The notes under the pieces were generated by a model that saw only the letters and a program-made list of their open reading frames with translations, was not told the DNA's origin and did no database searches. Positions 16,774 through 49,736 of a DNA stretch of 64,000 nucleotides are shown in pieces. The first letter of the stretch is position 1. The number at the start of each line of letters is the position of its first letter. Origin of the DNA: Chlorobiaceae bacterium (GTDB lineage: Bacteria; Bacteroidota; Chlorobiia; Chlorobiales; Chlorobiaceae). Position numbers and translations under genes: made by a program. The stretch is taken from NCBI GenBank assembly GCA_013334865.1, contig JAAXWS010000004.1:62001-126000 (forward strand), given 5' to 3'.

Positions 16774-17157
16774 AGCCAGTCATTGGGTTTTGGTTGATTG
16801 AACTAATGGATCGTCAGGAAAAAATGATGTAAAACCCCCAAGCGCCTGCTGCAAAAGAGGGTAAAAAATCCGAACCGGTCACTGTGATCGGTCACAGGAT
16901 CTTGAGCTGTAAAGTATGTCCTCTGAAATAAAAACCGCCGATATGACTGGTGGCGGCGAAAAGAACAGTGTACTTCATGCGGAGCTGAAAAGAAGCTCCG
17001 TAATTACCGGCAGGTCGGGAGAGCACCCAAGCCGGTTCGACGTGTCAGGTGGTGAACAGCGAAAAGTCAACGATATGCTACAAGAGTAATATAATTATGC
17101 GTAGCATAAGCGCAAAGCTTCCGGGCTAATTATTTTAGTCCGGCGCCAACGGAGGGC
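16774..17157. other. Non-coding region upstream of the usp operon
   Basis: No credible ORF. It holds a CRP/FNR-like palindrome (16883-16896), a short hairpin GGAGCT/AGCTCC (16981-16999) and a TTATGC-GTA-GCATAA dyad (17095-17109). It ends at the porin terminator. The usp operon promoter must lie here. Confidence 0.7.
16883..16896. promoter_or_regulatory. CRP/FNR-family-like operator
   Basis: Perfect dyad TGTGATCGGTCACA (TGTGA-N4-TCACA), with an extra half-site GGTCAC immediately 5'. Half-sites are CRP-like but the 4-nt spacing is that of FNR-type sites. It is about 110 nt upstream of the usp start codon. No direct evidence of binding. Confidence 0.5.
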
Positions 17158-30584: not shown

Positions 30585-30660
30585 CAACTATCAACTATCA
30601 ACTATCAACTATCAACTATCAACTATCAACTATCAACTATCCATTATCAATTGTCCATTA
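30585..30660. repeat. Heptad repeat island between nifB and the ferredoxin gene
   Basis: Eight exact tandem copies of CAACTAT (30585-30640), then CCATTATCAATTGTCCATTA (30641-30660), which overlaps the nifB stop codon. The same two sequence types occur at 26214-26660 and 6481-6565. No gene is inside this copy. Confidence 0.93.
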
Positions 30661-31932
30661 ATCACACCCATTCCCCGTCCCCCCGCACCCGGACTTGCAG
30701 GCGTGGATCTGGCTGCTCTTCATCAGGTGCTTCAGGTCCTGGCCGGTGAAGACGCCGTAGACCGCCTCCTCGATCACCCCTTCGAGCGACATGACATCGA
30801 TGCCCCGGGCGTTGAGCACGTTTTTCGGTGAATCTCCGGCGCTGTTGACCAGCAGGGCGCGGCAATCCGCAAGCCTCTCGGCCAGCGCTTCCCAGCGGTC
30901 CCTGCCGCCTCCGGGAGGGGGGGCCTGGCGTGAGTCGACCAGCGCGCAGCTCCGCGTCTGTTCGTCGAGCGCGTAGACCAGGAATCGGTCGGCTTCGCCG
31001 AGGTGCTGGTTGACGAGCACTCCCTCGATGCTGGCCACGGCGATGAACGGACGGTGCTCCTCGGGGTTTTTCGGCAGGCGTGAGGCTTCGGCAAGTTTCT
31101 GCATGATCTCCTCGTTGTTGATCTCGCCGATGATGCCGACCGCGTCGGCGCGGCAGCGGGCGCAGTGCTTCATCTGCGGCAGCAGCTTGCCGGCTTCTTC
31201 CTGGATCTCCTTCACCATTTCCGGATGCGGCTCGGGAATGTTCTCGAACACGGTCTCGGTGGTGTTGTAGTAGGGCAGGCAGTTCAGGATGTCGGCACCC
31301 ATGGAGGCCACCTGGCGGGCGACTTCGACCACATGGGTGTCGTTGATGCCCGGGATGATGATCGAGTTGACCTTGGCGGTCACGCCGAGCCTCTTGAGCT
31401 TCTGCAACGCCGCGAGCTGGTTTTCGAGCAGCAGCCGGGCACCCTCGATGTCGCGGTACATGCGCTTCTGGTAGCGCACCCAGGCATAGATCTCGGCGCC
31501 GATCTGCGGGTCGATGGCGTTGATCGTCAGCGTGACATGGCTCACCTTGAGTTCGGCAAGCTCGTCGATGTAGGGCAGCACGTCGAGGCCGTTGGTGGCG
31601 ACGCAGAGCAGCATTTCAGGATAGTGCTCCCTGACGAGGCGCAGCGTCTCCATGGTCTCCTCCGGGTTGGCGAAGGGGTCGCCGGGGCCGGCGATACCGA
31701 CGACCGAGATGTTCGGGGAGAGCTTGAGCGCCCCTTCGAGATAGTGCAGCGCCTGCTTCGGCGAGAGCACCTTGCTGGTGACGCCGGGGCGGTTCTCGTT
31801 CATGCAGTCGAACTTCCGGTTGCAGTAGTTGCACTGGATGTTGCATTTCGGCGCGACCGGCAGGTGGATGCGTCCGAACTTGTGCCTCGACGAGTCGTTG
31901 AAACAGGGATGGTTCTGGATGTTGAGTGTCAT
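30658..31932 (-). CDS. nifB: Nitrogenase FeMo-cofactor assembly protein NifB
   Basis: Radical-SAM enzyme that makes the 8Fe-9S-C precursor (NifB-co). The N-terminal SAM cluster motif is CNIQCNYC, followed by RKFDCMNENRPGV typical of NifB; GPGDPFANPEET and the later Cys pair (KHCARCRADAVG) are conserved. The last about 120 residues form a NifX/NafY-like cofactor-binding domain, so no separate nifX is needed. ATG at 31932, with GGGAGAAC upstream. 424 residues. The stop codon is in repeat DNA. Confidence 0.97.
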   Translation of the reverse strand: MTLNIQNHPCFNDSSRHKFGRIHLPVAPKCNIQCNYCNRKFDCMNENRPGVTSKVLSPKQALHYLEGALKLSPNISVVGIAGPGDPFANPEETMETLRLVREHYPEMLLCVATNGLDVLPYIDELAELKVSHVTLTINAIDPQIGAEIYAWVRYQKRMYRDIEGARLLLENQLAALQKLKRLGVTAKVNSIIIPGINDTHVVEVARQVASMGADILNCLPYYNTTETVFENIPEPHPEMVKEIQEEAGKLLPQMKHCARCRADAVGIIGEINNEEIMQKLAEASRLPKNPEEHRPFIAVASIEGVLVNQHLGEADRFLVYALDEQTRSCALVDSRQAPPPGGGRDRWEALAERLADCRALLVNSAGDSPKNVLNARGIDVMSLEGVIEEAVYGVFTGQDLKHLMKSSQIHACKSGCGGTGNGCD

Positions 31933-31946
31933 GGTGGTGTTCTCCC

Positions 31947-33320
31947 TTACATGTACGTATAGCCGATTGGCGAAGAGTTCTGGCGTTGTTCGATGACCGT
32001 GTTGACGATTCGGTCGAAAAGCTCCTGGGTCCCCCGGTAGCCGATATGGTGCAGGCGCTGGCCGCCGAAGCGGTCGTGGATCGGGAAGCCGATCCTGAGG
32101 AGCGGCAGCTCGTGGCGCTTCGACATGGCGAATCCCTTGCTGTTGCCGATGAGGAGGTCCGGCTTGAGTTCGTCCGCCTCATGTTCGATGTCCACGAAGT
32201 CCACGCCTTCGCGGACCTTGATGCCGAGCTCGTCCAGTTCCGGGACAAGTTCCTGCAGACGCTTCTTCATCTGGCCGCTCTTGCCGCCCGAGGCGCAGAG
32301 CACCGGCACAACGCCGATCTCGCTCAGGAAGGCGGCCATGGAGATCACCAGGTCCTCTTCGCCGTAGAGGAACGCCCGCCTGCCGAAGACGTACTTGTGC
32401 CCGTCGGCGTAGGCGTCGACGAGGCGCCGGCGTTCGTCCTCGTAGAGCTCCGGCATCGGCTTTTCGGTCAGCTGCTCCAGCGCCTCGAAAAACCGGTCGG
32501 TCGCCTTGATGCCGATGGGGAGCGGCAGGTGGATGCGTGGCACGCCGAAATGCTCTTCAAGGTAGCCGGCGGCAGACTTGCCGGACTCGAGCGTCGAGCC
32601 GAACTCGATGCTGGCCGATGCGCTGCCCGTGTCTTCGATGGCCCGCGCCGGGGTGCCTCCCGGAGGGATACGGTGGTACTCCGCCCAGGGGCCGCCGTCG
32701 AGCGTCTGCGAGTAGTCCGGCAGCAGCACGAAGGGCATGCCGAACGCGGTCAGTATCTCTTTCATGTAGCGGATGTCTGCCGGAGAGATCATGCCGGGGA
32801 AGAGGTTCACCAGCTTCCTTTTCGGGCCCTCCGCGGCGAAGGTCTTCACGGCCGACCGGACGGCAGCGTGGAAGCCGTCGATGTGCGTGCCGCTGTAGCT
32901 CGGCGTCGACGCGAAGATCATTGCCGGCAGCTGGCCCTCGCCGCCCATGATCGCTTCATACTCCTTCAGGATCATCGGCACGTCGTCGCCGATGGTCTCC
33001 GACAGGCAGGTGGTGGCGATGCCGATCACCTCCGGCTTGTACTGCTGCGAGACGTTCTTCAGGCCGAGCTTCAGGTTGTGGCTGCCGCCGAAGACGGCGG
33101 TTTCCTCGTTGAAGTTCGACGATGCGATATCGATCGGCTCCTTGTAGTGGCTGATCAGGTAGCGCCTGATGTAGGTGGCGCACCCCTGTGATCCGTGCAG
33201 GAATGGCACGCACTTCTCGATGCCCCTGAAAGCCAGGCAGGCGCCCAGGGGGTTGCAGAGCTTGCAGGCGTTCTGCGTCGCGGTCTTGGCCGTTGCGGCC
33301 GATGCAGCTGGTTTGGTCAT
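31947..33320 (-). CDS. nifN: Nitrogenase cofactor scaffold subunit NifN
   Basis: With NifE it forms the scaffold on which NifB-co is turned into FeMo-co. It is homologous to NifK: KLCNPLGACLAFRGIEKCVPFLHGSQGCATYIRRYL, ATTCLSETIGDDVP. The ATG at 33320 overlaps the nifE stop (ATGA) and gives 457 residues, in preference to an upstream start inside nifE. It is assigned as NifN rather than NifK by order and by the N-terminal CNPLGACLAFRG. Confidence 0.96.
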   Translation of the reverse strand: MTKPAASAATAKTATQNACKLCNPLGACLAFRGIEKCVPFLHGSQGCATYIRRYLISHYKEPIDIASSNFNEETAVFGGSHNLKLGLKNVSQQYKPEVIGIATTCLSETIGDDVPMILKEYEAIMGGEGQLPAMIFASTPSYSGTHIDGFHAAVRSAVKTFAAEGPKRKLVNLFPGMISPADIRYMKEILTAFGMPFVLLPDYSQTLDGGPWAEYHRIPPGGTPARAIEDTGSASASIEFGSTLESGKSAAGYLEEHFGVPRIHLPLPIGIKATDRFFEALEQLTEKPMPELYEDERRRLVDAYADGHKYVFGRRAFLYGEEDLVISMAAFLSEIGVVPVLCASGGKSGQMKKRLQELVPELDELGIKVREGVDFVDIEHEADELKPDLLIGNSKGFAMSKRHELPLLRIGFPIHDRFGGQRLHHIGYRGTQELFDRIVNTVIEQRQNSSPIGYTYM

Positions 33321-34684
33321 TTGAGGCCTCCTTTTCTCGGGGCGAACTGCCATACGGGGCTCATCACCGATTCATAAACTTCCTTGGCAAAATTGTACAT
33401 GCCGACGAATCCGGCCAGCGGGATCTTCCGCTCGTGGTTGTGGTCGCAGAAGCCGACGCCGAGCTTGAAGGCGATCGGGCGCTCCTTGACGCCGCCGATG
33501 AGCAGGTCGGCCTCCTTTTCGAGCACGAACTTGGAGAGCTCCACCGGGTTCGAGTCGTCGACGATCACCGTGCCCTCGTCGCACATCTCCTTCAGCCGGC
33601 GGTAGTCGTCCTTGTTGCCGGTCTGGGAGCCGGCGAGCACCACCGACATGCCGACCGTGCGAAGCGCCTTGATGAGCGAGAAGGTCTTGAAGGCGCCGCC
33701 GACGTAGATCGCCGCCTTTTTGCCGGTCAGGGCGGCTTTGAACTTCTGCATCTCCGGATAGTATTTCCGGATCTCGTCGCGCACGATCTCCTTGGCCCTT
33801 TCCATGATCTCCGGCCTGTCGGGGAAGAGGGCCGCCACGTCGTAGAGCGACTTGGACATGTCTTCGAAACCGAAGTAGGAGACGCGGATGTAGGGGATCC
33901 CGTACTTCTCTTCCATATCCCTGGCCAGCGTGGTCATCGAGCCGGAGCACTGCACCACGTTCAGGGTTGCGCCGTGCGAACGCCGTATGTCGTCGATCCT
34001 GCCGTCGCCGGTCATGGTGGCGACGACCTGGATGCCCATTTTCTCGTAATATTCCCGGATGATCCAGGCTTCCCCCGCGAGGTTGAACTCGCCGAGGATA
34101 TTGATGCTGTAGTTGCTGATCCCCTCGGTCGAACCGGTGCCGATCAGTTTCATGAGGGCCGAGCAGGCGGCTTTGTAGCCATCCTTCTTGGTGCCCTTGA
34201 ATCCTTCGGAATGCACCGGCATGACCGGGATTCCCTTTTCCTTTGCCACTTTCTTGCAGACGGCCTCGATATCGTCGCCGATCAGGCCGATGATGCAGGT
34301 CGAATAGATGAATGCCGCTTTCGGCTGGTACTGGTCGATCAGTTCGACGAGCGAGCGGTAGAGCTTTTTCTCTCCTCCGTAGATGACATCCATCTCCTGA
34401 AGGTCGGTCGAGAAGCTCAGGCGGTGCAGCTCCGGTCCCGAAGAGACGGCGCCGCGGATGTCCCAGGTGTAGGCCGCGCAGCCGATCGGCCCGTGGACGA
34501 TGTGGATGGCGTCGGCGACAGGGTAGAGGACCACGCGGGAGCCGCAGAAGACGCAGGCACGCTGGCTGACGGAGCCGGAAAGGCTCGTCTTGTCGCAGGC
34601 GATCTCGACCTCGGGGCCGTCCTGCCTCTTTTCGTACACCTGGCCTTCCCTGCCCTCGAGGAGGGCGATGTTGTGCGTGTCCAT
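33317..34684 (-). CDS. nifE: Nitrogenase cofactor scaffold subunit NifE
   Basis: Scaffold partner of NifN, homologous to NifD. Conserved blocks: QRACVFCGSRVVLYPVADAIHIVHGPIGCAAYTWDIRG, STCIIGLIGDDIEAV, and SEGFKGTKKDGYKAAC. The His ligand region of NifD is not preserved in the same form, as expected for a scaffold. 455 residues. It is coupled to nifN by a 4-nt overlap and lies 97 nt after nifK. Confidence 0.96.
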   Translation of the reverse strand: MDTHNIALLEGREGQVYEKRQDGPEVEIACDKTSLSGSVSQRACVFCGSRVVLYPVADAIHIVHGPIGCAAYTWDIRGAVSSGPELHRLSFSTDLQEMDVIYGGEKKLYRSLVELIDQYQPKAAFIYSTCIIGLIGDDIEAVCKKVAKEKGIPVMPVHSEGFKGTKKDGYKAACSALMKLIGTGSTEGISNYSINILGEFNLAGEAWIIREYYEKMGIQVVATMTGDGRIDDIRRSHGATLNVVQCSGSMTTLARDMEEKYGIPYIRVSYFGFEDMSKSLYDVAALFPDRPEIMERAKEIVRDEIRKYYPEMQKFKAALTGKKAAIYVGGAFKTFSLIKALRTVGMSVVLAGSQTGNKDDYRRLKEMCDEGTVIVDDSNPVELSKFVLEKEADLLIGGVKERPIAFKLGVGFCDHNHERKIPLAGFVGMYNFAKEVYESVMSPVWQFAPRKGGLK

Positions 34685-34781
34685 GGTTTACTCATTTTCA
34701 GTTTGTCAAGAGCCGGCCCCGGCAGCGCCGGGACCGCCCCTGTTGTCCTTTTCGTCCTTGATGTCCCTGAAGTCCCTTCTC

Positions 34782-36161
34782 TTACATTACCAACTCGAAC
34801 TTCTCCTCCAGCGCCGTGCGGTCCTGACGGTCCATGAGCACGCTGAGGATCTTTTCGACCAGCCTCAGGCCGCCCTTGTACCCGACGTTCGGGAAGTAGC
34901 TGTGGCCGATGCGGTCCAGGATCGGGAATCCGAACCTGACGAACGGGATGTCCTCGTCACGGGCGATGTACTTGCCGTAGGTGTTGCCGATGAGCAGGTC
35001 GACCGGTTCGTTCTTGATCCACTGGTGGAGCAGGAACATGTCGGCATTGAGCCCGTTCTTGAAGTTGGCGTATGGGGCACGCTCGAGGATCTCCTTCATG
35101 CGCTTCTCGAACCTCTGGCCGGGGGTGCCGCTGACGATGTGCACCGGCTTCATGTTCAGGTCGAGCAGGAATTCAGTAAGCGGGATCAGCTGGTCGGGGT
35201 CGCCGAACAGGGCCACCTTCTTGCCGTGGAAGTACTGCTCCATGTCGGCCATCACGTCGACGAGGCGTCCGCGCTCGGCGGTGATCTCCGCAGGAACCTT
35301 CACGCCGGCCGCTTTGCTGAGCGACACGATGAAGCGGTCGGTCGCCGACAGGCCGATGGGCATGTCGATCGTCTCGAAGGGCACCTTGCACTTCTTGTCG
35401 AGCGCGATTGCCGCCGGTTCGGCGCTGATGCAGCCCAGGGCAATCGAGCACTTGCTGTCGCCGGTGCTCTTCAGCTCGTCGACGGTGACGCCCCCCTTCG
35501 GGTAGATCTCGTGCTTGCCGGTCTGCGGTGCGTCGAGTACGTCGGAGGTGTCCGGGAAGAGGACGATCTTGGTCCCCATGGCCTTGGCGATATCCTTGAT
35601 TTCGCGCATGTCCGAGGGTTCCATCCATCCTGCGACGATGTTGATCTGCTCTTTCTTCTCGCCGGTCGATACGGCGAACTGCTCGGCCATGCCGGTCACC
35701 ATGTTGGCGTAACCGGTGATGTGCGAACCGACGAAGCTCGGGGTGCTCGCATAGATCACGTACTTGCCCGCAGGGATTTTGCCGTCGTCGCTGGCCTTCT
35801 TGGTGATCTGCTGCAAGTCGTCGCCGATGGTTTCGGACAGGCAGGTCGAGTGCACCGCGATGATGTCGGGATCGTAGACCGAGAAGATGGTCTCGATGGA
35901 CTGGAGCAGGTTGGCCTGGCCGCCGAACACCGAAGCGCCTTCGGTGAACGAGCTGGTTGCCGCCATGACCGGCTCCTTGTAGTGCCTGGTCAGGGTGCTG
36001 CGGTGGTAGGAGCAGCAGCCCTGCGAGCCGTGGCTGTGGGGCAGGCAGCCATGGATGCCGAGCGCGGCGTACATGGCGCCGATCGGCTGGCAGGTCTTGG
36101 CCGGGTTGATCGTCAGACCTTCCCGCAGCATGACCTCTTTTGGTGTGTGTCGTAATAACAT
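34782..36161 (-). CDS. nifK: Nitrogenase MoFe protein beta chain
   Basis: Beta subunit that shares the P-cluster with NifD. P-cluster cysteines are in TCQPIGAMYAALGIHGCLPHSHGSQGC and HSTCLSETIGDDL. With 459 residues it is shorter than the Azotobacter protein and lacks the N-terminal extension, like clostridial and methanogen NifK. ATG at 36161 with GGAGACC upstream; a second ATG ten codons later is possible. Confidence 0.97.
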   Translation of the reverse strand: MLLRHTPKEVMLREGLTINPAKTCQPIGAMYAALGIHGCLPHSHGSQGCCSYHRSTLTRHYKEPVMAATSSFTEGASVFGGQANLLQSIETIFSVYDPDIIAVHSTCLSETIGDDLQQITKKASDDGKIPAGKYVIYASTPSFVGSHITGYANMVTGMAEQFAVSTGEKKEQINIVAGWMEPSDMREIKDIAKAMGTKIVLFPDTSDVLDAPQTGKHEIYPKGGVTVDELKSTGDSKCSIALGCISAEPAAIALDKKCKVPFETIDMPIGLSATDRFIVSLSKAAGVKVPAEITAERGRLVDVMADMEQYFHGKKVALFGDPDQLIPLTEFLLDLNMKPVHIVSGTPGQRFEKRMKEILERAPYANFKNGLNADMFLLHQWIKNEPVDLLIGNTYGKYIARDEDIPFVRFGFPILDRIGHSYFPNVGYKGGLRLVEKILSVLMDRQDRTALEEKFELVM

Positions 36162-36232
36162 GATTCGATGGTCTCCTGTTTTGGATCACCGGACAGGTTT
36201 CCTGCCGGTGATCCCTGATTTTCATTCACTCC

Positions 36233-37861
36233 TTATGCGACGTAGCTGGCTTCCAGGGCCTCGGCGCCTTCCTTTTCCCACGGCGCCTTGATGAGCTTCC
36301 ATACCGGGTTGTTGACCATGCGGTCGATATCCTTGTAGAAGTTCACCGCACCTTCAAAGCCGGTGTAGGGGCCGCCGTAGTCGTAGCTGTGGAGCTGCTT
36401 GAGCGGCACGCCCATCTTCTGGACCACATACTTCTCCTTGATGCCGGCGCAGAAGATGTCGGGCTTGTAGAGTTCGATCAGCTTTTCGGACTCGTAGTGG
36501 CTGACGTCGTCGACGACCAGCGACTTTTTGACCATCTGCTTCATCATGCCCTCGTAGCCGTTGATCTCCAGGCCCTTGGCCTTCAGCTCTTCCAGTTCGG
36601 CTTCGCTCTTCCTCGGGTTGTAGAGTTCAGGGTCGGCCGTAATCTTCAGCTCCTCGATGTTCTTGCTGTCGGCGTCGATCTTGATGCTCGGAAGCACTTC
36701 GCGGCCTTCGTAGTCGTCGCGGTGCGCGAACTCGTATCCTGCGGCCACGGTCGTCATGCCGAGCTCCGTGAAGAGGTCCTGGTAGTGGTGGGCGCGCGAG
36801 CCTCCGACGAAGAGCATGGCGGTCTTGCCCTCGGTCCTCGGACGGATCTCGTCGATGATCGCCTTCACCTTCGGCATCTCCTCGGCAATCACCTCTTCGA
36901 CGCGTGCCTTGAGCCCTGCGTCGCCGAAGTATTCGGCGATCTTGCGCAGCGACTTGGCGCTCGATTCGGCGCCGACGAAGTTGACCTTCATCCATGGAAT
37001 ACCGTATTTGGTCTCCATCATGTCGCCCATGTAGTTGATCGAGCGGTGGCAGAGGATGACGTTCAGGTCAGCCATGTGCGAGTTTTCGATCGCGCCGACC
37101 GTCGAGTTGCCGCTGAACGAGGCGACCAGCGTGATGCCGCACTTTTCGAACAGTCGCTCGATTTCGAAGGCGTCGCCGCCGATGTTGTACTCGCCGAGCA
37201 GGTTCAGCTTGAACTTGCCTTCCACAGGCGCGTTGTTGTTGCCGACCATGTGCTTGAACACGCCGTTGTTGGCGATGTGGTGGCCCGCCGACTGGCTGAC
37301 GCCGCGGTAGCCTTCGCAGCTGAATCCGAACACGTTGCAGTCGCCGAGTTTCTCCTTCATCTCCCTGGCGGCGGCGTGGACGTCGTCGCCGATCAGGCCG
37401 ACCGGGCAGGTCGAGAAGATGGCGATGGCCTTCGGGTGGAAGAGGTCATAGGCCTCCTGGATCGCCTGCTTCAGCTTCTTTTCGCCGCCGAAGACCACGT
37501 TCTCCTCCTGCATATCCGTCGAAAAGCAGTAGGGGATGAAGTTTTCGTCGGTCGGGCTTTCCGGCCTGGTCTGGTTGCGGCGCGTCAGCCAGCTGTAGAA
37601 GCTGCAGCCGATCGGGCCGTGCGTGATGTTCACGATGTCGCGGGTCGGCCCGAGGACCACACCCTTGCATCCGGCGTAGGAACAGCCGCGCTGCGTGATG
37701 ATGCCCGGCACGGTACGGACGTTCGCCTGGACTTCAGGGATCGTCTCCGGGTCGTTGATCACGATCGACTTGCTGCGCTTCTTGGCAACCTTGGCCGGAT
37801 ACTTGTTGATCAGTTCCTCCTTGATGAGGGATGGATCTGGTAAATGTATTTTCGCCTGCAT
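36233..37861 (-). CDS. nifD: Nitrogenase MoFe protein alpha chain
   Basis: Catalytic subunit holding FeMo-co. P-cluster cysteines: GCSYAGCKGV, HGPIGCSFYSW and STCPVGLIGDD. FeMo-co ligands: the Cys in VILCHRSINYMG and the His in QLHSYDYGGPY. The 542 residues include an extra segment of about 50 residues in the C-terminal half (around KNIEELKITADPELYNPRKSEAE), which is the hallmark of clostridial/methanogen-type NifD. A GGAGAGA ribosome-binding site precedes the ATG at 37861. Confidence 0.98.
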   Translation of the reverse strand: MQAKIHLPDPSLIKEELINKYPAKVAKKRSKSIVINDPETIPEVQANVRTVPGIITQRGCSYAGCKGVVLGPTRDIVNITHGPIGCSFYSWLTRRNQTRPESPTDENFIPYCFSTDMQEENVVFGGEKKLKQAIQEAYDLFHPKAIAIFSTCPVGLIGDDVHAAAREMKEKLGDCNVFGFSCEGYRGVSQSAGHHIANNGVFKHMVGNNNAPVEGKFKLNLLGEYNIGGDAFEIERLFEKCGITLVASFSGNSTVGAIENSHMADLNVILCHRSINYMGDMMETKYGIPWMKVNFVGAESSAKSLRKIAEYFGDAGLKARVEEVIAEEMPKVKAIIDEIRPRTEGKTAMLFVGGSRAHHYQDLFTELGMTTVAAGYEFAHRDDYEGREVLPSIKIDADSKNIEELKITADPELYNPRKSEAELEELKAKGLEINGYEGMMKQMVKKSLVVDDVSHYESEKLIELYKPDIFCAGIKEKYVVQKMGVPLKQLHSYDYGGPYTGFEGAVNFYKDIDRMVNNPVWKLIKAPWEKEGAEALEASYVA

Positions 37862-37899
37862 TGTGCTTCTCTCCGTTTACACCTTGATTGTTTCTCTCC

Positions 37900-38277
37900 T
37901 TAGTTCAGCGCTTCGTTGCCTTCCTCGCCGGTCCTGACCCTGATCGTATCGAGGATCGGTGTGACGAAGATCTTGCCGTCGCCGGGCTTGCCTGTCTGGT
38001 TGGTCCTGATGATCGTGTCTATCGCCAGTTGGCACAGATCATCGGGGACGACCACGGTCAGGATCCTCTTGGCTACGAGCCTCGGGGCGTTGCCAAGCTG
38101 GGCTATCGCCTCGGGGTGGCCGGCTTCGGCGCCCTGGAGAATGTCGAAGTGAACCTGGCCCTTGCCGCGCCCCATCACCCTTCCCGTTGCCGTGAAGGCG
38201 GGGATGCCGGCATCGATGAGCGCTTTCTTGGTTTCGTTCACCTTGTTGATCCGGATGACTGAAATGATCTCTTTCAT
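37900..38277 (-). CDS. nifI2: Nitrogenase regulatory PII-like protein NifI2
   Basis: PII-family protein that, with NifI1, binds dinitrogenase and switches activity off when fixed nitrogen is plentiful, as shown in methanogens. 125 residues; the PII fold is seen in MKEIISVIRINKVNETKKAL, the T-loop region is long and unlike GlnB (no uridylylated Tyr motif), and GDGKIFVTPILDTIRVRTGE is the C-terminal PII signature. Its ATG overlaps the nifI1 stop by 1 nt (TGATG). Confidence 0.96.
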   Translation of the reverse strand: MKEIISVIRINKVNETKKALIDAGIPAFTATGRVMGRGKGQVHFDILQGAEAGHPEAIAQLGNAPRLVAKRILTVVVPDDLCQLAIDTIIRTNQTGKPGDGKIFVTPILDTIRVRTGEEGNEALN

Positions 38278-38627
38278 CAGGCCTCCTTCGCTGCCAGCAG
38301 CGTTTCGCTTTCCTTGGTTCCGGAGCTGATGGTGTAGACCTCCTCGACGGCCGAAACGAAGATCTTGCCGTCGCCGAACTTGCCGTCACCGGTTTTTGCA
38401 TGGTCCAGAATGGCCCGGATCACGAAATCCTTGTCGGCGTCGGGAACCACGACGAAGAGCATCTCCTTCGGGAGCTCGTCATAGACCACGTCGCCCACCC
38501 GCAGGCCGCGCTGCTTGCCTCGTCCGACCACCGAAATCTTGGTGACGGCCGGGTATCCTGCGTCGAGCAGCCCCTGCATGACCTCGTGTACTTTTTCGGG
38601 CCTGACGATTGTTCTGATCATTAACAT
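38277..38627 (-). CDS. nifI1: Nitrogenase regulatory PII-like protein NifI1
   Basis: Partner of NifI2. 116 residues: MIRTIVRPEKVHEVMQGLLDAGYPAVTKISVVGRGKQRGLRVGDVVYDELPK, then KFGDGKIFVSAVEEVYTI. The T-loop has the NifI1 form rather than the GlnB/GlnK form. ATG at 38627 has AGGAG about nine bases upstream and is preferred over the ATG two codons later. The position between nifH and nifD is that of the methanogen-like nif operons. Confidence 0.96.
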   Translation of the reverse strand: MLMIRTIVRPEKVHEVMQGLLDAGYPAVTKISVVGRGKQRGLRVGDVVYDELPKEMLFVVVPDADKDFVIRAILDHAKTGDGKFGDGKIFVSAVEEVYTISSGTKESETLLAAKEA

Positions 38628-38728: not shown

Positions 38729-39565
<837 letters not shown>

Positions 39566-39639: not shown

Positions 39640-39655
39640 TGCAATTCTTGTGCCA
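39640..39655 (-). promoter_or_regulatory. Sigma-54 (-24/-12) promoter of nifH
   Basis: On the minus strand TGGCACAAGAATTGCA: TGGCAC-N5-TTGCA, with the GG and GC doublets ten bases apart as required. It lies 86 nt upstream of the nifH ATG and implies activation by an enhancer-binding protein such as the NifA at 42743-44371. Confidence 0.93.
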
Positions 39656-39807: not shown

Positions 39808-39855
39808 ATCCTACAGAAGGGTAGGAAATGGTTTGTTTCTACCCTTCTGTAGGAT
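39808..39855. promoter_or_regulatory. 17-bp perfect inverted repeat upstream of nifH
   Basis: Arms ATCCTACAGAAGGGTAG and its exact complement around a 14-nt spacer, about 155-200 nt upstream of the -24 element, in the range of an enhancer site. Each arm is itself a dyad (CTAC-N6-GTAG). It does not match the NifA consensus. A terminator is less likely, since no gene ends nearby. Confidence 0.75.
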
Positions 39856-40219
39856 TTTGTCCTTCATGGCGTTCATTTCATTTCCATGAAACAGCGGATG
39901 TGGAGCCGGGTGTTTCGCATTTGCTCATGGTTTTCCGGAAGGGACGTGAGGGTTTTCATCGTCGTGGATTTTCCGGGAGCCGGAAAAGGCACAAAAATGT
40001 AGGAAATTGCGTAAGCTGGTTTTTTGCACAGGAACCGGACGGAACCTGATGTTGTTGCAAAGTAAAAGCCCGGCAGCTTGAAGATGTTGTGGCTGATAAT
40101 GGTATGCCGTTCAAGGCGAGCTAGCCCGGGAACAAGCATTTCAGATGCATCGTTCGGGGCTATCATTGCCTGCCTGAACCCGTTGTTTACAGCTCATTTT
40201 GTCAACCAATCCGGATCTC

Positions 40220-40540
40220 ATGAGAATGCACAGACATCGTAGGGTTCCCGTAGGTGCTGAACGCTATCGGTATTCGGCGGCTCTTGCCGGTAATGCCGGT
40301 AAAGGAATGCGAACTGGTAAAGCTGTTACCGCGGTGGCCGTCGGAGCATTGGCCGCAGGGGCACTCGCTATCGGAGCCCTCTCAGTCGGGGCTTTGGCTA
40401 TCGGGAAGATGGTCGTAGGTCGAATCCTTGTCAGGCTGGCACGGATAGGGAGGCTGGAGATAGAGTCGCTGCATATCGGGAGGATCGAGGTTGCCGAATC
40501 TCCGGAAATTTCCTCCTCAGGCAGGGTGTCGAAGCCTTGA
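40220..40540 (+). CDS. Small glycine/alanine-rich repetitive protein
   Basis: A 106-residue protein of unknown function. The basic N terminus (RMHRHRRVPVGAERYRY) is followed by a regular five-residue pattern (about residues 38-70: GALAAGALAIGALSVGALAIG, then VGRILVRLARIGRLEIESLHIG) that could be a membrane-embedded or beta-solenoid segment. The start is uncertain: ATG 40220 or 40226, with no strong ribosome-binding site. It is convergent with the hybrid kinase gene, 6 nt apart. A repetitive, low-complexity product could in principle be a chance ORF, but the pattern is real. Confidence 0.5.
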   Translation: MRMHRHRRVPVGAERYRYSAALAGNAGKGMRTGKAVTAVAVGALAAGALAIGALSVGALAIGKMVVGRILVRLARIGRLEIESLHIGRIEVAESPEISSSGRVSKP

Positions 40541-40546
40541 GCGACG

Positions 40547-42535
40547 TCATGCGTTCGTCGGACTCGGAACCCATCGCAGCATGAGTTCGGAAAGTGACTT
40601 GATCGTGATCGGTTTAGAGGTGTAGTCGTTCATTCCGGCTTCCATGCACCGCCGGCGATCCTCCTCCATCGCGTTTGCCGTCATGGCGACGATAGGGGTT
40701 TTCGGGTCGAGCACGCCCTCCCAGCCGCTCCTGATCCGAATGGTGGCTTCGATGCCGTCCATGATCGGCATTTGCAGATCCATGAAGACCAGTTCGTAGT
40801 GTTGCGTTTTCATGCGGTCGATGGCATCGGCGCCATTGCGGGCAATATCCACATCGAAACCTATTTTCCTGATCATTGCCGATGCTACCAGCTGGCTGCT
40901 CTGGTTGTCTTCAACCAGGAGGATCCGTCCGGTCTGCTTTTCCGCGCCGGCCTGTATCTGGAGGTTTTCAGCATGATGCATCACGGCATCCTGTGTGTTT
41001 TCCGGTATGCCGAAATCGATCGTGAAGCTGAACGTCGATCCTTCACCGATAAGGCTTTTCAGCTCGATTCTTCCGCCCATGAAGTTGACAAGCTTCGAGG
41101 CGATGGAGAGCCCGAGGCCAGTGCCGCTGGTCAGTCTCGTATTATCCTGCCCGATCCGGGTGAATCGCTGGAACACTATCTGCTGCTTTTCTTCAGGGAT
41201 GCCGATGCCGGTGTCATGAACAGATAGCCGCACTCTCGAACGATCGTTTCCGATATCGACGGCTTCCGCAGAGATCGAGATTCCTCCGGACTCTGTATAC
41301 TTGAGAGCGTTCTGGACCAGGTTGATAAGTACCTGACGCAGGTAGACCGGGTGTCCGGCGAGCAGGTTCGGAATCGACGGATCGATGGTTTCGTTGAGTT
41401 CCAGGCCTTTGCCTTCAGTGCTGTTGCGCATCATGTCATGCAGTTCCCGTATCAGGGCACGCAGGTCGAAGACATTCGTTGCTTCATCGAGGATTCCTGA
41501 TTCGATCCTGCTGAAGTCGAGGATATTGCTGATCAGGTCGAGCAGCAGCTTTGCGCTGTTGTGCGCTGTTTCGGCAAAACATCTCGATTCGCGGTCAAGG
41601 TTTGCGGCCAGCAGAAGTTCGCACATCCCGATGACGGTGTTCAGGGGGGTCCTGATTTCGTGCGACATGTTCGCGACGAATTCGCTCTTCGACCTGCTTG
41701 CGCTTTCGGACTGGCTTCTGGCTTGCTTGAGCTCGATGACCAGCTGCCGCAGTTCCTCCTCCTTTTCTTCGACAAGCCGTTTTTCCGAAACAAGTTTTTC
41801 GTTGAGCTGGCGAGCCTGCTCAAGCGCTTTTTCGGTTTCCTGCATCTGCATTTTTTCCTTGAGCAGGAGCTCCTTGATGTCTGCGTTGAGTACCGTGATG
41901 ATGTCGTTCAGTTCATCGATGGGGCGTCCGCTCGAAACAGGAGTGTACGGTGGGGTCAATGCCTCCTGTTCGTACATGAGCTGTCCGCAACGGGCGGCGA
42001 AATCGTCCAGTTCAGTAATCGAAAGCCCCATTTTCTCCGGTGGCCCGGTTTCTGGGGATTTCAATTCGCTGTTCAGTGATTCGAAAGCCTGGGAAAGGTC
42101 ATCGACGAAGATGAAGCGCTGCTTTACATAACGGGCGAAAAGGCGGAGCGTGATTCTCAGCAGCGGCGAGGAGCCGCAGATAATGGTGATTTCCGGGAAA
42201 GCGTTGTTCGTCCTGTTCGCCCGGTTAAGGGCGTTGGCATAGTGGATTCTGGTCTGGAGGGCGGGCTGGATGACGTCGGAGTAGTCGGCGATTCTTACAT
42301 ATCTGCAACCTGCGAGGTTGCCGCTCATGAAGATTTCGGGTAACGTGGCCATTGCCCGTTCAACGTCTTCCTGCTGTGCCAGACCGCCGATCGAAGTGAA
42401 GAAAAGTCTCCCGGGGATGACGCCGCTGACATAACGGAAGCCGGTATCCGGATTTTCGATCCGCCATTCCGGTCGAAACTTGATCCGGTCATAGCTGAAA
42501 AGATTATTGGGATCCGCATGCTTCGGAAGAACCAT
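40547..42535 (-). CDS. Hybrid sensor histidine kinase/response regulator
   Basis: A 662-residue soluble kinase. The first 190 residues have no recognised sensor fold and no membrane helix. A coiled coil (about 215-280, [29 protein letters not shown]) leads into HisKA with [18 protein letters not shown] (about residue 290), an HATPase ([47 protein letters not shown]) and a receiver domain with [12 protein letters not shown] (phospho-Asp near residue 585) and the terminal KPI. It lies between nifA and nifH, so a role in nitrogen or redox signalling is suggested by position only. No separate output gene is adjacent. Confidence 0.92.
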
Positions 42536-42742: not shown

Positions 42743-44371
42743 TCAGGATCGGAACTTGCGGTAGTCGACGTTGAATTTTTTCATCCTCAGGCCCATGATC
42801 CTGTCGGAAAGGCCGAGTTGGGCCGCTGCCCGGGACATGTTACCCTTGGTGCGCTTCAGGGCCTCGATGATCATCTCCTTCTCGATGGCATCGAGTTTCT
42901 GCTGGAGCGATCCCGTGTAGGGCGTTCCGCTCGATTCTGCTGTCTGGAGCGACGGAGGGAGGTGGTAGCCGTGGATCACGTTGTCCTCGCTCAGGATAAC
43001 CGCCCGCTCGATGCAGTTCTGCAACTCCCTCACGTTGCCGGGCCAGTGGTAGCGCATGAGCATGTCGATGGCCGTCGTGGAGATGCGCCGTACTCCCTTG
43101 TGGTTCAGTGAGTTGAACTTCTCGATGAAATAGTCGGCCAGCAGCATGATGTCGGTCTTCCTCTCTCGAAGCGGCGGAACGGTGATCGGGAAGATGTTCA
43201 GCCGGTAGTAGAGGTCTTCGCGGAACGCACCTTCGCGGATCTGATCCTCGAGGTTCCGGTTGGTGGCCGCGATGATGCGTACATCCGTCTTGATCGTCCT
43301 GGTGCCTCCGAGCCGTTCGAACTCCTTTTCCTGGATGATCCTCAACAGCTTGGCCTGTATCGCAATGCTCAGCTCGCCGACCTCGTCGAGGAAGATGGTG
43401 CCGCCGTCGGCAAGCTCGAAACGGCCCCTGCGCTGCGCTGCGGCTCCGGTGAAAGCTCCCCGCTCGTGGCCGAAGAGCTCGCTTTCGACGATGTTTTCGG
43501 GGAGTGCCGCACAGTTGAACTTGATGAACGACTTTCCGGCCCTGTGGCTTTTGAAGTGGATGGCGTTGGCGACAAGCTCCTTGCCTACGCCGCTTTCACC
43601 CAGGATCAGCGCCGTCGCATTGGTTCGGGAGATCTTGTCGATCATCCTGAAGAGCGAGAGTACGGGCTTGGTGTTGCCTATGATGTTGGCCGGCCTTTCG
43701 GTGTCTTCGAGTTCCCCGTCGAGCTCTTCCTCATCCGGGTGGAGGGCGACGGGGGCGGGGAGGCCGGCAGGAGTTTTCACGTTTGCCTGCTTTCCCTCGG
43801 CGGCGAGCTGCTTGAGCCTGACCGCCTGGGAGATCATGGCCGCGATGATCGACAGCAGGTCGACAAAGTACTGGAGGGTGTCCTTCCTGGCCTCCTCGAC
43901 CTTGCTCCGTTTTGAGTTCCCCGATTCGGAAGGGGCCGATAGCCTGCGGTCAGCGCTCAGGGTGCCGATCACCTCGACGCCTGCCTTGATGGGTACGCAG
44001 ATGAAGCAGAGCTCCTCTTTCTTCTCCCTGGATCGGGAGCCGGTCCTGTCGAGGAACAGCGGCTCCTCGTTGATCCTGGGGACGATGGCCGGCTTTCCGC
44101 TCTTCACCACCTTGCCGATGATCCCCTCGCCGATCCGGTAGCGTCCCCTCTGGCTTTCCGTTTCGGTCAGTCCGAACGATTCGTTGATGACGATTTCGCT
44201 GGTGTCCCGGTTCAGGATCGTGATCATGCCCCGAAGCATGTTCATGTGCTCCGACAGGATGAACAGTACAAGCCGGAGGACCTTGCTGATGTCCTCTTCG
44301 TTGTTGACCGTCCTGCTCACTTCCGCGAGAAGGCTGATGCTGCTGTGTTCCTGCTGGTTGGTGATGAGCAT
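42743..44371 (-). CDS. nifA: Nif-specific sigma-54 activator NifA
   Basis: Enhancer-binding protein for nif transcription. Domains: GAF (about 10-185), AAA+ (about 225-460) with Walker A GESGVGKE (258-265), the sigma-54 contact loop GAFTGA (305-310) and Walker B FLDE (327-330), then a Fis-type helix-turn-helix (NMSRAAAQLGLSDRIMGLRMKKF, about 510-532). It lacks the CxxxxC linker motif of oxygen-sensitive NifA proteins. 542 residues. It starts 6 nt after nifV, so nifV-nifA is an operon. Another sigma-54 activator is possible, but context and the HTH favour NifA. Confidence 0.93.
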   Translation of the reverse strand: MLITNQQEHSSISLLAEVSRTVNNEEDISKVLRLVLFILSEHMNMLRGMITILNRDTSEIVINESFGLTETESQRGRYRIGEGIIGKVVKSGKPAIVPRINEEPLFLDRTGSRSREKKEELCFICVPIKAGVEVIGTLSADRRLSAPSESGNSKRSKVEEARKDTLQYFVDLLSIIAAMISQAVRLKQLAAEGKQANVKTPAGLPAPVALHPDEEELDGELEDTERPANIIGNTKPVLSLFRMIDKISRTNATALILGESGVGKELVANAIHFKSHRAGKSFIKFNCAALPENIVESELFGHERGAFTGAAAQRRGRFELADGGTIFLDEVGELSIAIQAKLLRIIQEKEFERLGGTRTIKTDVRIIAATNRNLEDQIREGAFREDLYYRLNIFPITVPPLRERKTDIMLLADYFIEKFNSLNHKGVRRISTTAIDMLMRYHWPGNVRELQNCIERAVILSEDNVIHGYHLPPSLQTAESSGTPYTGSLQQKLDAIEKEMIIEALKRTKGNMSRAAAQLGLSDRIMGLRMKKFNVDYRKFRS

Positions 44372-44377
44372 GACTGC

Positions 44378-45547
44378 TTAAGCTGATTGATTGCGTGTCT
44401 GGCGATATTGCCGGTGGATCTCGTCCAGCTCTTCCGCGCAAAGGGCGCGCTTCCGGCTCCCTGCCGCTTTCCGGACCAGTTCAAGCATGCCGAAGGCCTC
44501 CTCCCTCGTCAGCTGGACCCCCCGTTTCCGGAAATGTTCACTGATGGCGGCCGATCCGGAATGCTTGCCGATCACCATTTCGAAGCTTTTCCTGCCGACC
44601 GTGGAGGGGAGGAACGGCTGGTAGGAGAGCGGCTCCTGCAGCAATGCGGCGCAGTGTATTCCAGATTCGTGCTCGAACGCCGATTTCCCGACGACCGGCT
44701 TCTGCTCCTGGATCGGCCGGCCTGATGCCGCCGAGACCGCTTCGCAGAGCACGGCGAGCATGGTCGTATCGAGCCTGCAGGCGGTTCCGTCATCAAGGGC
44801 GAGCGCCATGGCGAGCTCTTCGAGGGCGGCGTTTCCGGCCCGTTCCCCTAGGCCGGTCACCGAAACGCTCACGGCCTGGCATCCGGCCTTGAGGGCCGTG
44901 AAGGCATTGGCCGTGGCCATGCCCAGGTCGTTATGCGCATGGAACTCGAGGGGGAGTGTGGTACGGGAACGAAGGCCGGAGACCATCTCGACGATCGAAA
45001 GCGGCGTCGCCACGCCGACGGTATCCGCGATCCTTATCCGGTCTGCTCCTGCCGCTTCGGCATCTTCAACGAATCGTTCCAGGAGCGTTCTTTCCGCCCT
45101 GGTGGCATCCTGGCCGCCGACGCTCACGAATCTGAACAGGCTGCGGGCATGGCCGATCAGTTCATGCAGCTGAGCGCGGACCCATTCGTACTCCCTCTTC
45201 ATGAGCCTGAGGTAGAGGGGAGAGATCGGGAAACTGATATGCACCGCCTCGGTGCCGCATGAAGCCGCAAGCTCGATATCGCTACGGTTTGCTCTCGACC
45301 AGGAGGTGAGCCTGGCGGGAAGGCCCATCGAGACGATCTCCCTTATTGCCTCGCGCTCCGAAGGACCGATGGCAGGGTAGCCCACCTCGATCTCATCGAT
45401 CCCGGTCTCTGCGAGCAACCGCGCGATATGCCTTTTTTCATGATGGCTGAAGACCACGCCGGGGGCCTGCTCCCCATCCCTGAGGGTCGTATCGATGATC
45501 CATGGGCCTGCAGAGGGCCCGGTAGGGATGTTTGCGCCGGGAGGCAT
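44378..45547 (-). CDS. nifV: Homocitrate synthase NifV
   Basis: Condenses acetyl-CoA and 2-oxoglutarate to homocitrate, the organic ligand of FeMo-co. DRE-TIM metallolyase with DTTLRDGEQAPGV at the N terminus, HAHNDLGMATANAF carrying the metal His pair, and GLGERAGNAALEELAMAL; GKSAFEHESGIHCAALL follows. At 389 residues it lacks the leucine-feedback domain of isopropylmalate synthase, which supports NifV. It is immediately upstream of nifA. Confidence 0.93.
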   Translation of the reverse strand: MPPGANIPTGPSAGPWIIDTTLRDGEQAPGVVFSHHEKRHIARLLAETGIDEIEVGYPAIGPSEREAIREIVSMGLPARLTSWSRANRSDIELAASCGTEAVHISFPISPLYLRLMKREYEWVRAQLHELIGHARSLFRFVSVGGQDATRAERTLLERFVEDAEAAGADRIRIADTVGVATPLSIVEMVSGLRSRTTLPLEFHAHNDLGMATANAFTALKAGCQAVSVSVTGLGERAGNAALEELAMALALDDGTACRLDTTMLAVLCEAVSAASGRPIQEQKPVVGKSAFEHESGIHCAALLQEPLSYQPFLPSTVGRKSFEMVIGKHSGSAAISEHFRKRGVQLTREEAFGMLELVRKAAGSRKRALCAEELDEIHRQYRQTRNQSA

Positions 45548-46449: not shown

Positions 46450-47223
46450 TCAAAGAGAACGGATATCCTCGATAAAGCTATATCCAATGCCGCTGGCGGT
46501 CTCGATCGGATTATGGCCACAGGTATCCTTGATTTTACGGCGCAGTCGGTTAACCAGCGATTCGAGAGCGCGGTGGCCGTATTCGTTATTCAAATACTCA
46601 AGGCATTTCAGCAGTTCCTGCCGGGTTGCCACTTCCTGACTGACTGATGCCAGCAGTGAGATGAAGTCCCGCTCTTTTGGGGTTAGCTTGATTTTCTTCC
46701 CGTCAGGGGTTACAAGAAGCCATTTGCCCGGTATAAACGACCAGTTCGCACTCCTCACTATTTCCGGACGGCTCTCTACTTCAGGAACCTTGCTATTTCC
46801 TGTCAACGATTCAGGTGAGATGTCAGGTGGCAGTCTTCTCAGGAGATTGTCGATCGTGGCTTCCAGTTCCCGGATATTGACCGGTTTGACCATGAATACA
46901 TCAGCCCCCGCCTGATAACCGGAAAGTTTATCATCCAGCTTTGAGCGTGCGGTGAGAATGATGATCCTCATATCCGTATTTGCTCGCAAGTACTCTGTCA
47001 GCACAAGCCCGTTCTGGTCTGGAAGGCCGATATCAATGATTGCTATCTTGAATGTATTCGCTGTCAACTGCTGATAGAGTTCAAGTGCCGACCCTACTCC
47101 GGCAACCTCGTATCCTTTGAGCGTCAAATACTTGACGAGGCTTTCGCGAAGGTCGGTGTCATCCTCAGCTATGATCAGTCTGGTGACTGAGGTGCTTGGT
47201 TTGGAGGCATTTTGATGGTTCAC
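46450..47223 (-). CDS. OmpR-type response regulator
   Basis: A 257-residue transcription factor: receiver domain (IIAEDDTDLRESL; phospho-Asp in IAIIDIGLPDQNG; Lys in VKPVN) and a C-terminal winged helix (about 165-255: KIKLTPKERDFISLLA, LESLVNRLRRKI, GYSFIE). The linker between them, about 40 residues, is longer than usual. GTG start at 47223. It follows the double-module kinase by 56 nt and is its likely partner. Targets unknown. Confidence 0.93.
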   Translation of the reverse strand: MNHQNASKPSTSVTRLIIAEDDTDLRESLVKYLTLKGYEVAGVGSALELYQQLTANTFKIAIIDIGLPDQNGLVLTEYLRANTDMRIIILTARSKLDDKLSGYQAGADVFMVKPVNIRELEATIDNLLRRLPPDISPESLTGNSKVPEVESRPEIVRSANWSFIPGKWLLVTPDGKKIKLTPKERDFISLLASVSQEVATRQELLKCLEYLNNEYGHRALESLVNRLRRKIKDTCGHNPIETASGIGYSFIEDIRSL

Positions 47224-47279
47224 GGCACCAGTATTGACATTAATGGTCTGTTACGTGGGTCTTGCATTACGCAACTTCG

Positions 47280-49736
47280 TCATGATTCAGTGAAAAAGCC
47301 GGAAAGCGGCAGACGGACAGTTGCCGCTATCCCATCTTCTCCGTTTTCGAGGGCGACCGAGCCGTTATGCTGCTCGATAATCTCGCGTACAAGCCAGAGG
47401 CCGATTCCTGCTCCGCTGGTATTGTTGCTTGATTTTCCACGAATGTATTTCCCGAATAGCAGATCACACTCTTCCTTTCCCATTTGACCTTTGTTGAATA
47501 TCCTTATCACTAAACCATGATCTTCTTTGAGCGTCATAATGTTGACCGGTGTATTTGCGGGCGAATATTTCTGGGCGTTATCCAGAAGATTGAAAAACGC
47601 TGTTTTCAAATACTGCGCATCCCCGAAGACTTGATCATCCTCCAGTCCGTCATTATAGTTGAAGATTCTTTCCGGCCAGATCGTGCGGATATCTTCGATT
47701 TGTGAAGATATCAATAGTTTGATCGGGACGTGACGAAATTCGGCTTTTGTCTTGGGATCGTAAAGTCGGCCCCGTCCGAGCGATATATCCATAACCTCCA
47801 CTAGGCGATGAACCGCCCGCCTCATCTTGTTCAACTCGACGCTATTGTTGATCTGGTGGAGGGAGTTCTGGAGTTCGAGAATATCCAGGTTGGTGCTGAT
47901 AACCGCCAGCGGGGTCCGATATTCATGAGATATCATAGTCAGGAAGCGGTGTTGCAACTCCCCGGCCTGCCGTTCAGCTTCCAGCGCCGCCCTGAGCCGG
48001 GTTTCTCGTAATTCGAGTTCAGTGGACAACGATTCGATAAACGCAGTACTTGATAGATTGTCCCGGTTTGCTTGCCTGTCGGCAAGCTCTTCGGCTCTGG
48101 GTGTTGTTTCGGTATGGCCCGGATCTGCATCCGTTGCTGTCGATCCAGACATCTCCCCTGCATAAATGGGAAGGGTGACGGTAAATTTGCTGCCCTTGCC
48201 AATATGGCTATCCACATCTATGTAACCCTTGTGTTGTTTGACGATGCCCATCACTGAAGACAGCCCCAGACCCGATTTCAACTCCGAGTGTCTTGTGGTG
48301 AAAAATGGCTCGAAAATGAACGGCAGAATATCAGGAGAAACGCCTGTTCCCGTGTCGCTCACGACAAGCTCTACGTAACGGCCAACCAGAACTCCTTTTG
48401 TCTCTGTTTGATCCTTATCATAATCGACCAGCTTGGTTTCTATCGTTATGGTGCCTCCCTCGGGCATCGCATCCTGGGCGTTGGTTGCGAGATTCATTAC
48501 AACCTGCCTGATTTTAGCAGAATCGCCATGGACAAGCGGCAAATCTCCAACAGTCCAGAAACAGATGTTAATGTCATCCCTGAGAAAACCCCGAAGCAGG
48601 GGTTCACATTTCTTGACCTCACCATTCAGATCAATGGGCCTGAACTCGTGGGATTGAAGCTGGTTGAGGTCGAGAAGCTGGTTAAGCAGATCTTTCGCCC
48701 TTAATGCGGCTCCCGAGACGGTACCCAGCAAGGTTCTCTGTTCGTCACTGTTTATGACGAGATTCGGATCCTTGAGATATTCCGTGTATTCGATAATCGG
48801 TTTAAGGGCATGGTTGAGCTGATTGGCGATGCCGGTTGCGATGCGTCCTATGGATTCCCTTTTCTGAGATACGAACAGATTGCGCTCAAACTCAAGTTGC
48901 TTACGTTCGTTTTTAAGCCTCTCCGTCACGTCGCGCGTAATGCCTACGACACCCGTAACATGTCCAGCTCTGTTGCGAACCAGGGAGACCATTACCTCCG
49001 ACTGGAATACCGAGCCGTCTTTTCGCAATTCGTCAAATCCGTAGATGCCGGAACTTATCGCGTTTTCATCACCGTCCTCGATGGCCTTGATCCGTGTCTG
49101 GAGTTCAATTGCCGCTCTCTGTGCCGATTCGGGTGTCAATACATCAAATAATCCGAGCTGAAGCATCTCATTTTGTGTTCGGCCGCAGATTCTGGTTACC
49201 GACGGCGAGCTGTATGTATACTTCCCGGTGTGAAGATCATATGCCCAAAGAAGATCAATGGAGTTGTCCGAAATCAGTCGAAAGAGTTCGTCTTTCTCCT
49301 GGAGTTCCTTCTCGTGGCCGTTAATGGTACTGCCCTCCATTGCGAAGTTTGACGGGGGCCGGTCCTGAGGCTCGTGACTTGGTGTTTCCGCCAGTGTCCC
49401 AATGACTTTGGCGACTTTTCCGTCGCGGACAAAAGGAGTCACCGTAACATATATCTGGATGGCTTCGCCTGTTTTTGTTTTCGCCATAAGATTTCTGCTC
49501 AACGGGTTTCCCAGTTCCATGCACTCGGAAATCACCAGCTCGAAATCCTGAAAATCGTGTTTTGAAAGAAGTGAGAGCAGCAGATCTGAAGACGAATCAA
49601 CGGGCAATTCTCCAGGGTCATACCCCAGGATGGTGTAAAGCTCATCGGAAACATCCAGTATCTCCCTATCGACATCCAGTATAAATGACGCCGTATGCAC
49701 ACACTCTGTAAGGGCCGGTATTGATGTCTTACTCAT
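47280..49736 (-). CDS. PAS sensor kinase with two tandem kinase modules
   Basis: An 818-residue soluble kinase. Two PAS domains (about 10-115 and 150-275) are followed by a first kinase module: a HisKA-like helix with GIANQLNHALKPI (about 304-318) where NtrB-type kinases have a phospho-acceptor His, and an HATPase with N-box NLATNAQDAMPEGG, DTGTGVSP and GLGLSSVMG. A coiled coil (about 560-600) leads to a second module with a canonical FLTMISHEYRTPLAVI (about 596-611) and an HATPase (NLLDNAQKYSP, GAGIGLWLVREI). The first acceptor His is replaced by Asn; the second is intact. It is paired with the response regulator downstream. Confidence 0.9.
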   Translation of the reverse strand: MSKTSIPALTECVHTASFILDVDREILDVSDELYTILGYDPGELPVDSSSDLLLSLLSKHDFQDFELVISECMELGNPLSRNLMAKTKTGEAIQIYVTVTPFVRDGKVAKVIGTLAETPSHEPQDRPPSNFAMEGSTINGHEKELQEKDELFRLISDNSIDLLWAYDLHTGKYTYSSPSVTRICGRTQNEMLQLGLFDVLTPESAQRAAIELQTRIKAIEDGDENAISSGIYGFDELRKDGSVFQSEVMVSLVRNRAGHVTGVVGITRDVTERLKNERKQLEFERNLFVSQKRESIGRIATGIANQLNHALKPIIEYTEYLKDPNLVINSDEQRTLLGTVSGAALRAKDLLNQLLDLNQLQSHEFRPIDLNGEVKKCEPLLRGFLRDDINICFWTVGDLPLVHGDSAKIRQVVMNLATNAQDAMPEGGTITIETKLVDYDKDQTETKGVLVGRYVELVVSDTGTGVSPDILPFIFEPFFTTRHSELKSGLGLSSVMGIVKQHKGYIDVDSHIGKGSKFTVTLPIYAGEMSGSTATDADPGHTETTPRAEELADRQANRDNLSSTAFIESLSTELELRETRLRAALEAERQAGELQHRFLTMISHEYRTPLAVISTNLDILELQNSLHQINNSVELNKMRRAVHRLVEVMDISLGRGRLYDPKTKAEFRHVPIKLLISSQIEDIRTIWPERIFNYNDGLEDDQVFGDAQYLKTAFFNLLDNAQKYSPANTPVNIMTLKEDHGLVIRIFNKGQMGKEECDLLFGKYIRGKSSNNTSGAGIGLWLVREIIEQHNGSVALENGEDGIAATVRLPLSGFFTES

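Follow-up and report, generated by a model that had tools for sequence, protein, structure and literature searches.

A conserved pair of CTAC-N6-GTAG dyads as the likely enhancer of the nifH operon in Chlorobiaceae

Main finding

We propose, with a probability of about 85%, that a pair of CTAC-N6-GTAG dyads at positions 39808-39855 of a 64-kb stretch of the Chlorobiaceae contig JAAXWS010000004.1 (64,000 nucleotides; hereafter the window) is the upstream activator sequence, or enhancer, of the nifH operon, and that it is bound by the NifA of the Bacteroidota/Chlorobia lineage. The phylogenetic footprint of the element indicates that it is functional, the pair apparently being kept in nearly all nitrogen-fixing Bacteroidota relatives examined. 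NifA acting through TGT-N10-ACA sites is the textbook rule for nif control; the nitrogen-fixing Bacteroidota examined, green sulfur bacteria included, appear to use a non-textbook half-site with the core of the proteobacterial AnfA site.

The paired dyad element and its genomic context

Examination of the window reveals an inverted repeat, ATCCTACAGAAGGGTAG-(14 nt)-CTACCCTTCTGTAGGAT, with perfect 17-bp arms at 39808-39824 and 39839-39855, which a repeat search could extend to 20 nt at 95%. It is made up of two dyads with 3-bp flanks, namely a promoter-proximal dyad, CTAC-AGAAGG-GTAG (39811-39824), and a promoter-distal dyad, CTAC-CCTTCT-GTAG (39839-39852), whose centres are 28 bp apart; neither the dyads nor the repeat have an assigned strand. 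These are the only two matches to CTAC-N6-GTAG in the window (0.13 expected). The exact double dyad with its 14-nt spacer occurs a single time in the whole 2.4-Mb genome, in which there are no further copies of the 17-bp arm with fewer than three mismatches.

The element lies above nifH (38729-39553, minus strand, start at 39553; TIGR01287 and PF00142), the first gene of a nif operon that continues at 30658-38627 on the minus strand with Pfam matches for two P-II (glnB-like) proteins, four nitrogenase component 1-type proteins (nifDKEN) and a nifB-like radical-SAM protein, the gene names beyond nifH being assigned from family and order. The textbook sigma-54 promoter described in the earlier note is borne out by TGGCACAAGAATTGCA at 39640-39655 (minus strand), the only perfect -24/-12 match in the window, which takes the same position in relatives. 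The dyads are centred ~170 and ~198 bp upstream of it, an offset that is fixed in relatives and agrees with the distance previously judged suitable for an enhancer. The element accordingly combines two hallmarks of sigma-54 enhancers: a -24/-12 promoter downstream within looping distance, and a palindrome that is conserved and usually repeated. A pattern search of the window returned zero TGT-N10-ACA matches from nifH to the next gene, upholding the earlier statement that this site is missing near the promoter; four matches lie elsewhere in the window, at 17043, 27999, 29322 and 56869. A canonical NifA upstream activator sequence, which is defined by TGT-N10-ACA, was rejected on the grounds that none occurs upstream of nifH here and that the pattern is at chance level in relatives.

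Upstream of the nif operon, and on the same strand as nifH, are genes for a hybrid histidine kinase situated between nifA and nifH (40547-42535, minus strand; domain search), for NifA (42743-44371, minus strand) and for NifV (44378-45547, minus strand; family search). Past nifV there is a further pair of genes coding for an OmpR-type regulator and a hybrid kinase (46450-49736, minus strand), and both this pair and the kinase at 40547-42535 might possibly take part in nif-linked signaling. A 113-codon open reading frame with AIGALSVGALAIG-like repeats (40199-40540, plus strand), for which Pfam and NCBIfam searches gave no match, separates the hybrid kinase gene from nifH. A degenerate third dyad, CTACATTTTTGTGC (39989-40002, minus strand; repeat D2), has two mismatches and is weak in this genome. 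It lies ~450 bp above nifH; in relatives, where it falls between -340 and -600, it is exact in 16 of 76 upstream regions and present at up to one mismatch in 43 of 76, versus 13 for a control palindrome.

Conservation of the element upstream of nifH

The exact pattern CTAC-N6-GTAG-N14-CTAC-N6-GTAG is found in 14 of the 86 genomes of the family, as one copy each and in every case before nifH, with the reversed control pattern giving zero matches in the same 86 genomes. For the match in one of these genomes (G018) the nifH start was verified on the same contig. The 3' end of that contig (C48; locus L164) is seemingly chimeric, with the nifH frame entering unrelated sequence after a few dozen codons, and is probably an assembly artefact of the G018 genome.

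When up to three mismatches are allowed over the 16 fixed bases, the double dyad is present in 70 of the 76 unique nifH upstream regions of Chlorobiaceae, in which it starts 290-304 bp above the ATG, retains a spacing of exactly 28 and assumes only a few adjacent offsets relative to the -24 element. The six regions that do not have it (L061, L070, L074, L092, L093 and L094) belong to extra or divergent Mo-type copies of nifH in some Chlorobium genomes, and the upstream regions of the alternative-nitrogenase-type nifH (~69% identity) are likewise devoid of it. Three of the six copies adjoin a gene for a VnfA-like activator. Where the pair is conserved, its inner positions (AC in CTAC, GTA in GTAG) are retained at 94-100% and the outer C and G at 67-94%, whereas the N6 cores are variable. 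Hence, of the perfect 17-bp repeat of CTAC-N6-GTAG arms to which the earlier note drew attention, the repeat itself is indeed present here, but the conserved feature is the two dyads with their spacing rather than the perfect inverted repeat; the latter is partly incidental, since complementary arms like those in this genome occur in a minority of relatives.

The same element extends beyond the family. Both of the other nif-bearing genomes of the order carry the dyad pair upstream of nifH, at -271/-243 with a third dyad at -346 in G086, and at -331/-303 in G087. In Bacteroidales at least one dyad with up to one mismatch occurs in 24 of 25 nifH upstream regions. Its distance from the best -24 candidate downstream is usually 125-138 or 153-168 bp, and four cases have dyads at both distances, so that there are again two slots ~30 bp apart; the -12 elements of Bacteroidales are weaker than those of Chlorobia. 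The element has thus withstood the refuting test proposed for it, namely that relatives sharing this nif operon would fail to conserve the repeat.

An unbiased palindrome scan recovers the same motif

The motif was also recovered by a scan of 3,328 palindromes, comprising 256 four-base half-sites with gaps of 0-12, with Markov shuffles as controls. CTAC-N6-GTAG ranked first of the 3,328 both for nifH of Chlorobiaceae (51 of 76 regions with an exact site) and for the upstream regions of a second gene described below (24 of 50), and second for nifH of Bacteroidales (13 of 25), where only the overlapping TACA-N4-TGTA was ahead of it. At up to one mismatch the dyad is present in 73 of 76, 48 of 50 and 24 of 25 of these three sets, respectively, versus 5.6, 2.3 and 1.2 in shuffles. 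TGT-N10-ACA remains at chance in the same sets (10, 5 and 3 regions versus 8.1, 3.7 and 3.3 expected), and the only palindromes over-represented in them besides the CTAC-N6-GTAG type are A/T runs.

A second sigma-54 promoter with the dyad pair

A search for the exact single dyad in six genomes uncovered another pair in the same genome, at 90592 and 90621 of contig C16. It is located upstream of a gene for a protein of ~310 residues (L154:1593-2708, corresponding to ~90592-91708 of the contig), with a sigma-54 site in between, and the same layout is seen in two relatives. Several other single dyads among those examined from this search fall within open reading frames. Among 50 orthologous upstream regions of the ~310-residue gene, the dyad occurs in 48 and a pair at a spacing of 28-30 in 46 (29 in 41), nearly all with a sigma-54 site ~90-125 bp downstream of the pair. 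As the motif had been defined without this promoter, its presence there constitutes an independent confirmation, and the pair is conserved at two independent sigma-54 promoters.

The protein matched no Pfam or NCBIfam family save for a weak hint of MORN_2. It is encoded by 84 of 98 Chlorobia genomes, including both nif-bearing outgroups, and is absent from four (incomplete) genomes of the family and from all ten nif-less members of the order. This phyletic pattern makes it a candidate new nif-associated gene, which seems to track nif across Chlorobia. CTAC-N6-GTAG can be used to look for nif-coregulated genes in Bacteroidota, a phylum for which we came across no work on nif control sites, and it has already retrieved one unknown gene.

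NifA as the candidate binder

The NifA encoded beside the operon displays the layout of its family, with a GAF domain, a sigma-54 AAA+ domain containing the GAFTGA motif and a Fis-type HTH (residues 493-533), and it aligns over its full length with the solved NifA 9qq6 (7e-110). TIGR01817 is by far its best match, with a score of 517.2 bits that is just under the cut-off of 528.85, as are the scores of NifA in five of seven genomes including this one, while the orthologues of two relatives are above it. In Bacteroidales, NifA is encoded by all 24 nif genomes searched and is the sole match at the cut-off used in 22 of them. It is the consistent companion of the dyad site in both Chlorobia and Bacteroidales. 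The recognition helix takes the form [ST][DE]R[IV][MI]GLR in Chlorobia NifA, TER[IM][ML]G[LI]R in Bacteroidales NifA and TRR[VT]LSLK in the VnfA-like paralogues; four proteobacterial NifAs, the only ones compared, have T[PT]RQ[IVM]xY (a PRQxGY type, as against the ERIMGLR type found here). A phylogenetic tree separates Bacteroidales NifA, Chlorobia NifA and the VnfA-like paralogues (the latter next to Chlorobia NifA) from five plasmid-borne sequences, namely one Desulfovibrio-group protein and the four proteobacterial NifAs. Thus, the NifAs of Chlorobia and Bacteroidales share both a site and a helix type, and the groups with other sites differ in their helix, which amounts to a correlation rather than a proof. 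Because the site and the recognition helix of NifA change together, the sequences are now best read in line with the earlier suggestion that this NifA may recognize a different site.

Characterized enhancer-binding proteins offer close parallels. Alongside the TGT-N10-ACA site of NifA, it has been reported that Rhodobacter capsulatus AnfA binds TAC-N6-GTA in two copies and that Azotobacter vinelandii VnfA binds GTAC-N6-GTAC (PMC7294313); VnfA sites are paired at a similar spacing, for which cooperative binding has been proposed (PMC9542535). The Chlorobia element resembles the proteobacterial NifA sites in being a palindrome above a sigma-54 nif promoter in a genome coding for a GAF/AAA+/Fis-HTH activator, but differs from them in its CTAC half-site (TGT there), its pairing at 28-29 bp and the recognition helix of its NifA. 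It shares with the AnfA site an identical TAC-N6-GTA core and gap, the presence of two dyads and a sigma-54 promoter; however, it has an additional outer C/G, comes from a different phylum and precedes a molybdenum nitrogenase operon. With the VnfA site it has in common the TAC-N6-GTA core, the gap and regularly spaced pairs, although the outer base is C here and G there, and VnfA controls vanadium and iron-only nitrogenase genes. Accordingly, the element has the two-copy TAC-N6-GTA core of AnfA/VnfA-type sites, but stands before a Mo-type nifH and not before alternative nitrogenase genes controlled by AnfA or VnfA. It most likely works like a paired AnfA/VnfA-type enhancer that serves the Mo-nitrogenase. 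In the literature accessible without subscription we found no paper with the string CTAC-N6-GTAG and nothing pertinent on where NifA binds in green sulfur bacteria or in Bacteroidetes.

In light of these comparisons, we infer that NifA is the binder and activates the operon in the following manner. One NifA HTH dimer would sit on each CTAC-N6-GTAG dyad, and dyads 28 bp apart could hold two dimers side by side, which would help NifA to build its AAA+ ring. Looping of the DNA over ~170-200 bp would next allow the GAFTGA loops to contact the sigma-54 polymerase at the -24/-12 promoter.

Alternative explanations

The dyads could instead be an enhancer for some other sigma-54 activator or response regulator that is co-conserved with nif, in which case NifA would bind elsewhere. 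The genome does encode several other sigma-54 AAA+ proteins (four further matches), and response-regulator and hybrid-kinase genes are near nifA; however, in Chlorobia and Bacteroidales alike the motif precedes nifH and has NifA as its companion, no over-represented palindrome apart from A/T runs is left for NifA to bind, and the core fits the sites of AnfA and VnfA, the closest characterized relatives of NifA. We regard such an activator as unlikely. A site for ModE or another molybdenum-responsive repressor, ModE having been named in the earlier note, might be expected from the position before a molybdenum-nitrogenase operon, but the pairing and distance fit an activator, the site does not appear to resemble the published ModE consensus, and the second target combines the same enhancer with a sigma-54 promoter; this repressor went unsupported and appears extremely improbable.

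That the 17-bp inverted repeat is a hairpin with which a nifA-containing transcript ends, either a transcription terminator or an RNA element, is suggested by its strong predicted fold (-38.6 kcal/mol, z -9), by a terminator-like match on the plus strand and by complementarity between the N6 cores that is above chance in the family. Nevertheless, the N6 cores fail to match in 57 of 70 relatives even though the CTAC and GTAG bases are retained, the minus strand, from which nifA and nifH are read, has no U-tract after the repeat, Rfam matches are only sub-threshold and unrelated, and the second promoter retains its dyads without complementary arms. As the arms are not conserved and the U-tract is missing, we reject a hairpin or terminator as the main role and consider it very unlikely. 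A chance repeat or the remnant of a mobile element is barely conceivable: nothing was found in its favor, and a repeat family or mobile element is ruled out by the single genomic copy and the conservation of orthologous positions across the family. Binding by NifA as an enhancer thus remains our preferred reading.

Complementarity between the arms

The N6 cores of paired nifH dyads show more inverted complementarity than expected, with 205 matches versus 157 +/- 8 and none of 5,000 shuffles reaching 205, though shuffles only partly remove relatedness. Pairs with at least five of six complementary N6 positions number 13 versus 3.2 expected. The excess persists after thinning to 43 dissimilar upstream regions (132 versus 99 +/- 7) and is present within each genus, but it is uneven by column, being strongest at the second N6 base. 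No excess is seen at the pair of the second gene (71 versus 87). Possible sources of the complementarity are template switching between the arms in replication and selection for pairing. It is conceivable, if rather doubtful, that the nifH element has a second, structural role, in which complementary N6 cores would in many lineages form a long cruciform or hairpin that competes with or tunes activator binding; in that event the second promoter, without complementarity, would be a built-in control.

Sites upstream of alternative nitrogenase genes

For the alternative-nitrogenase-type nifH the palindrome scan yielded A/T runs only. Some of these Chlorobia promoters carry GTKC-N6-GMAC, which is TGT...ACA-like, instead of the CTAC type. 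Exact sites are found in five of 11 upstream regions, in register with TGT-N10-ACA; GTKC-N6-GMAC sites are carried by several regions among L099-L103 and the alternative nifH upstream region of G086 (L166). It is suggestive only, but this could perhaps be the site of the VnfA-like paralogue. The set of paralogues and sites should be useful for understanding how the Fis-type helices of enhancer-binding proteins select DNA. Two of the five regions with exact sites have tandem GTKC-N6-GMAC sites ~30 bp apart.
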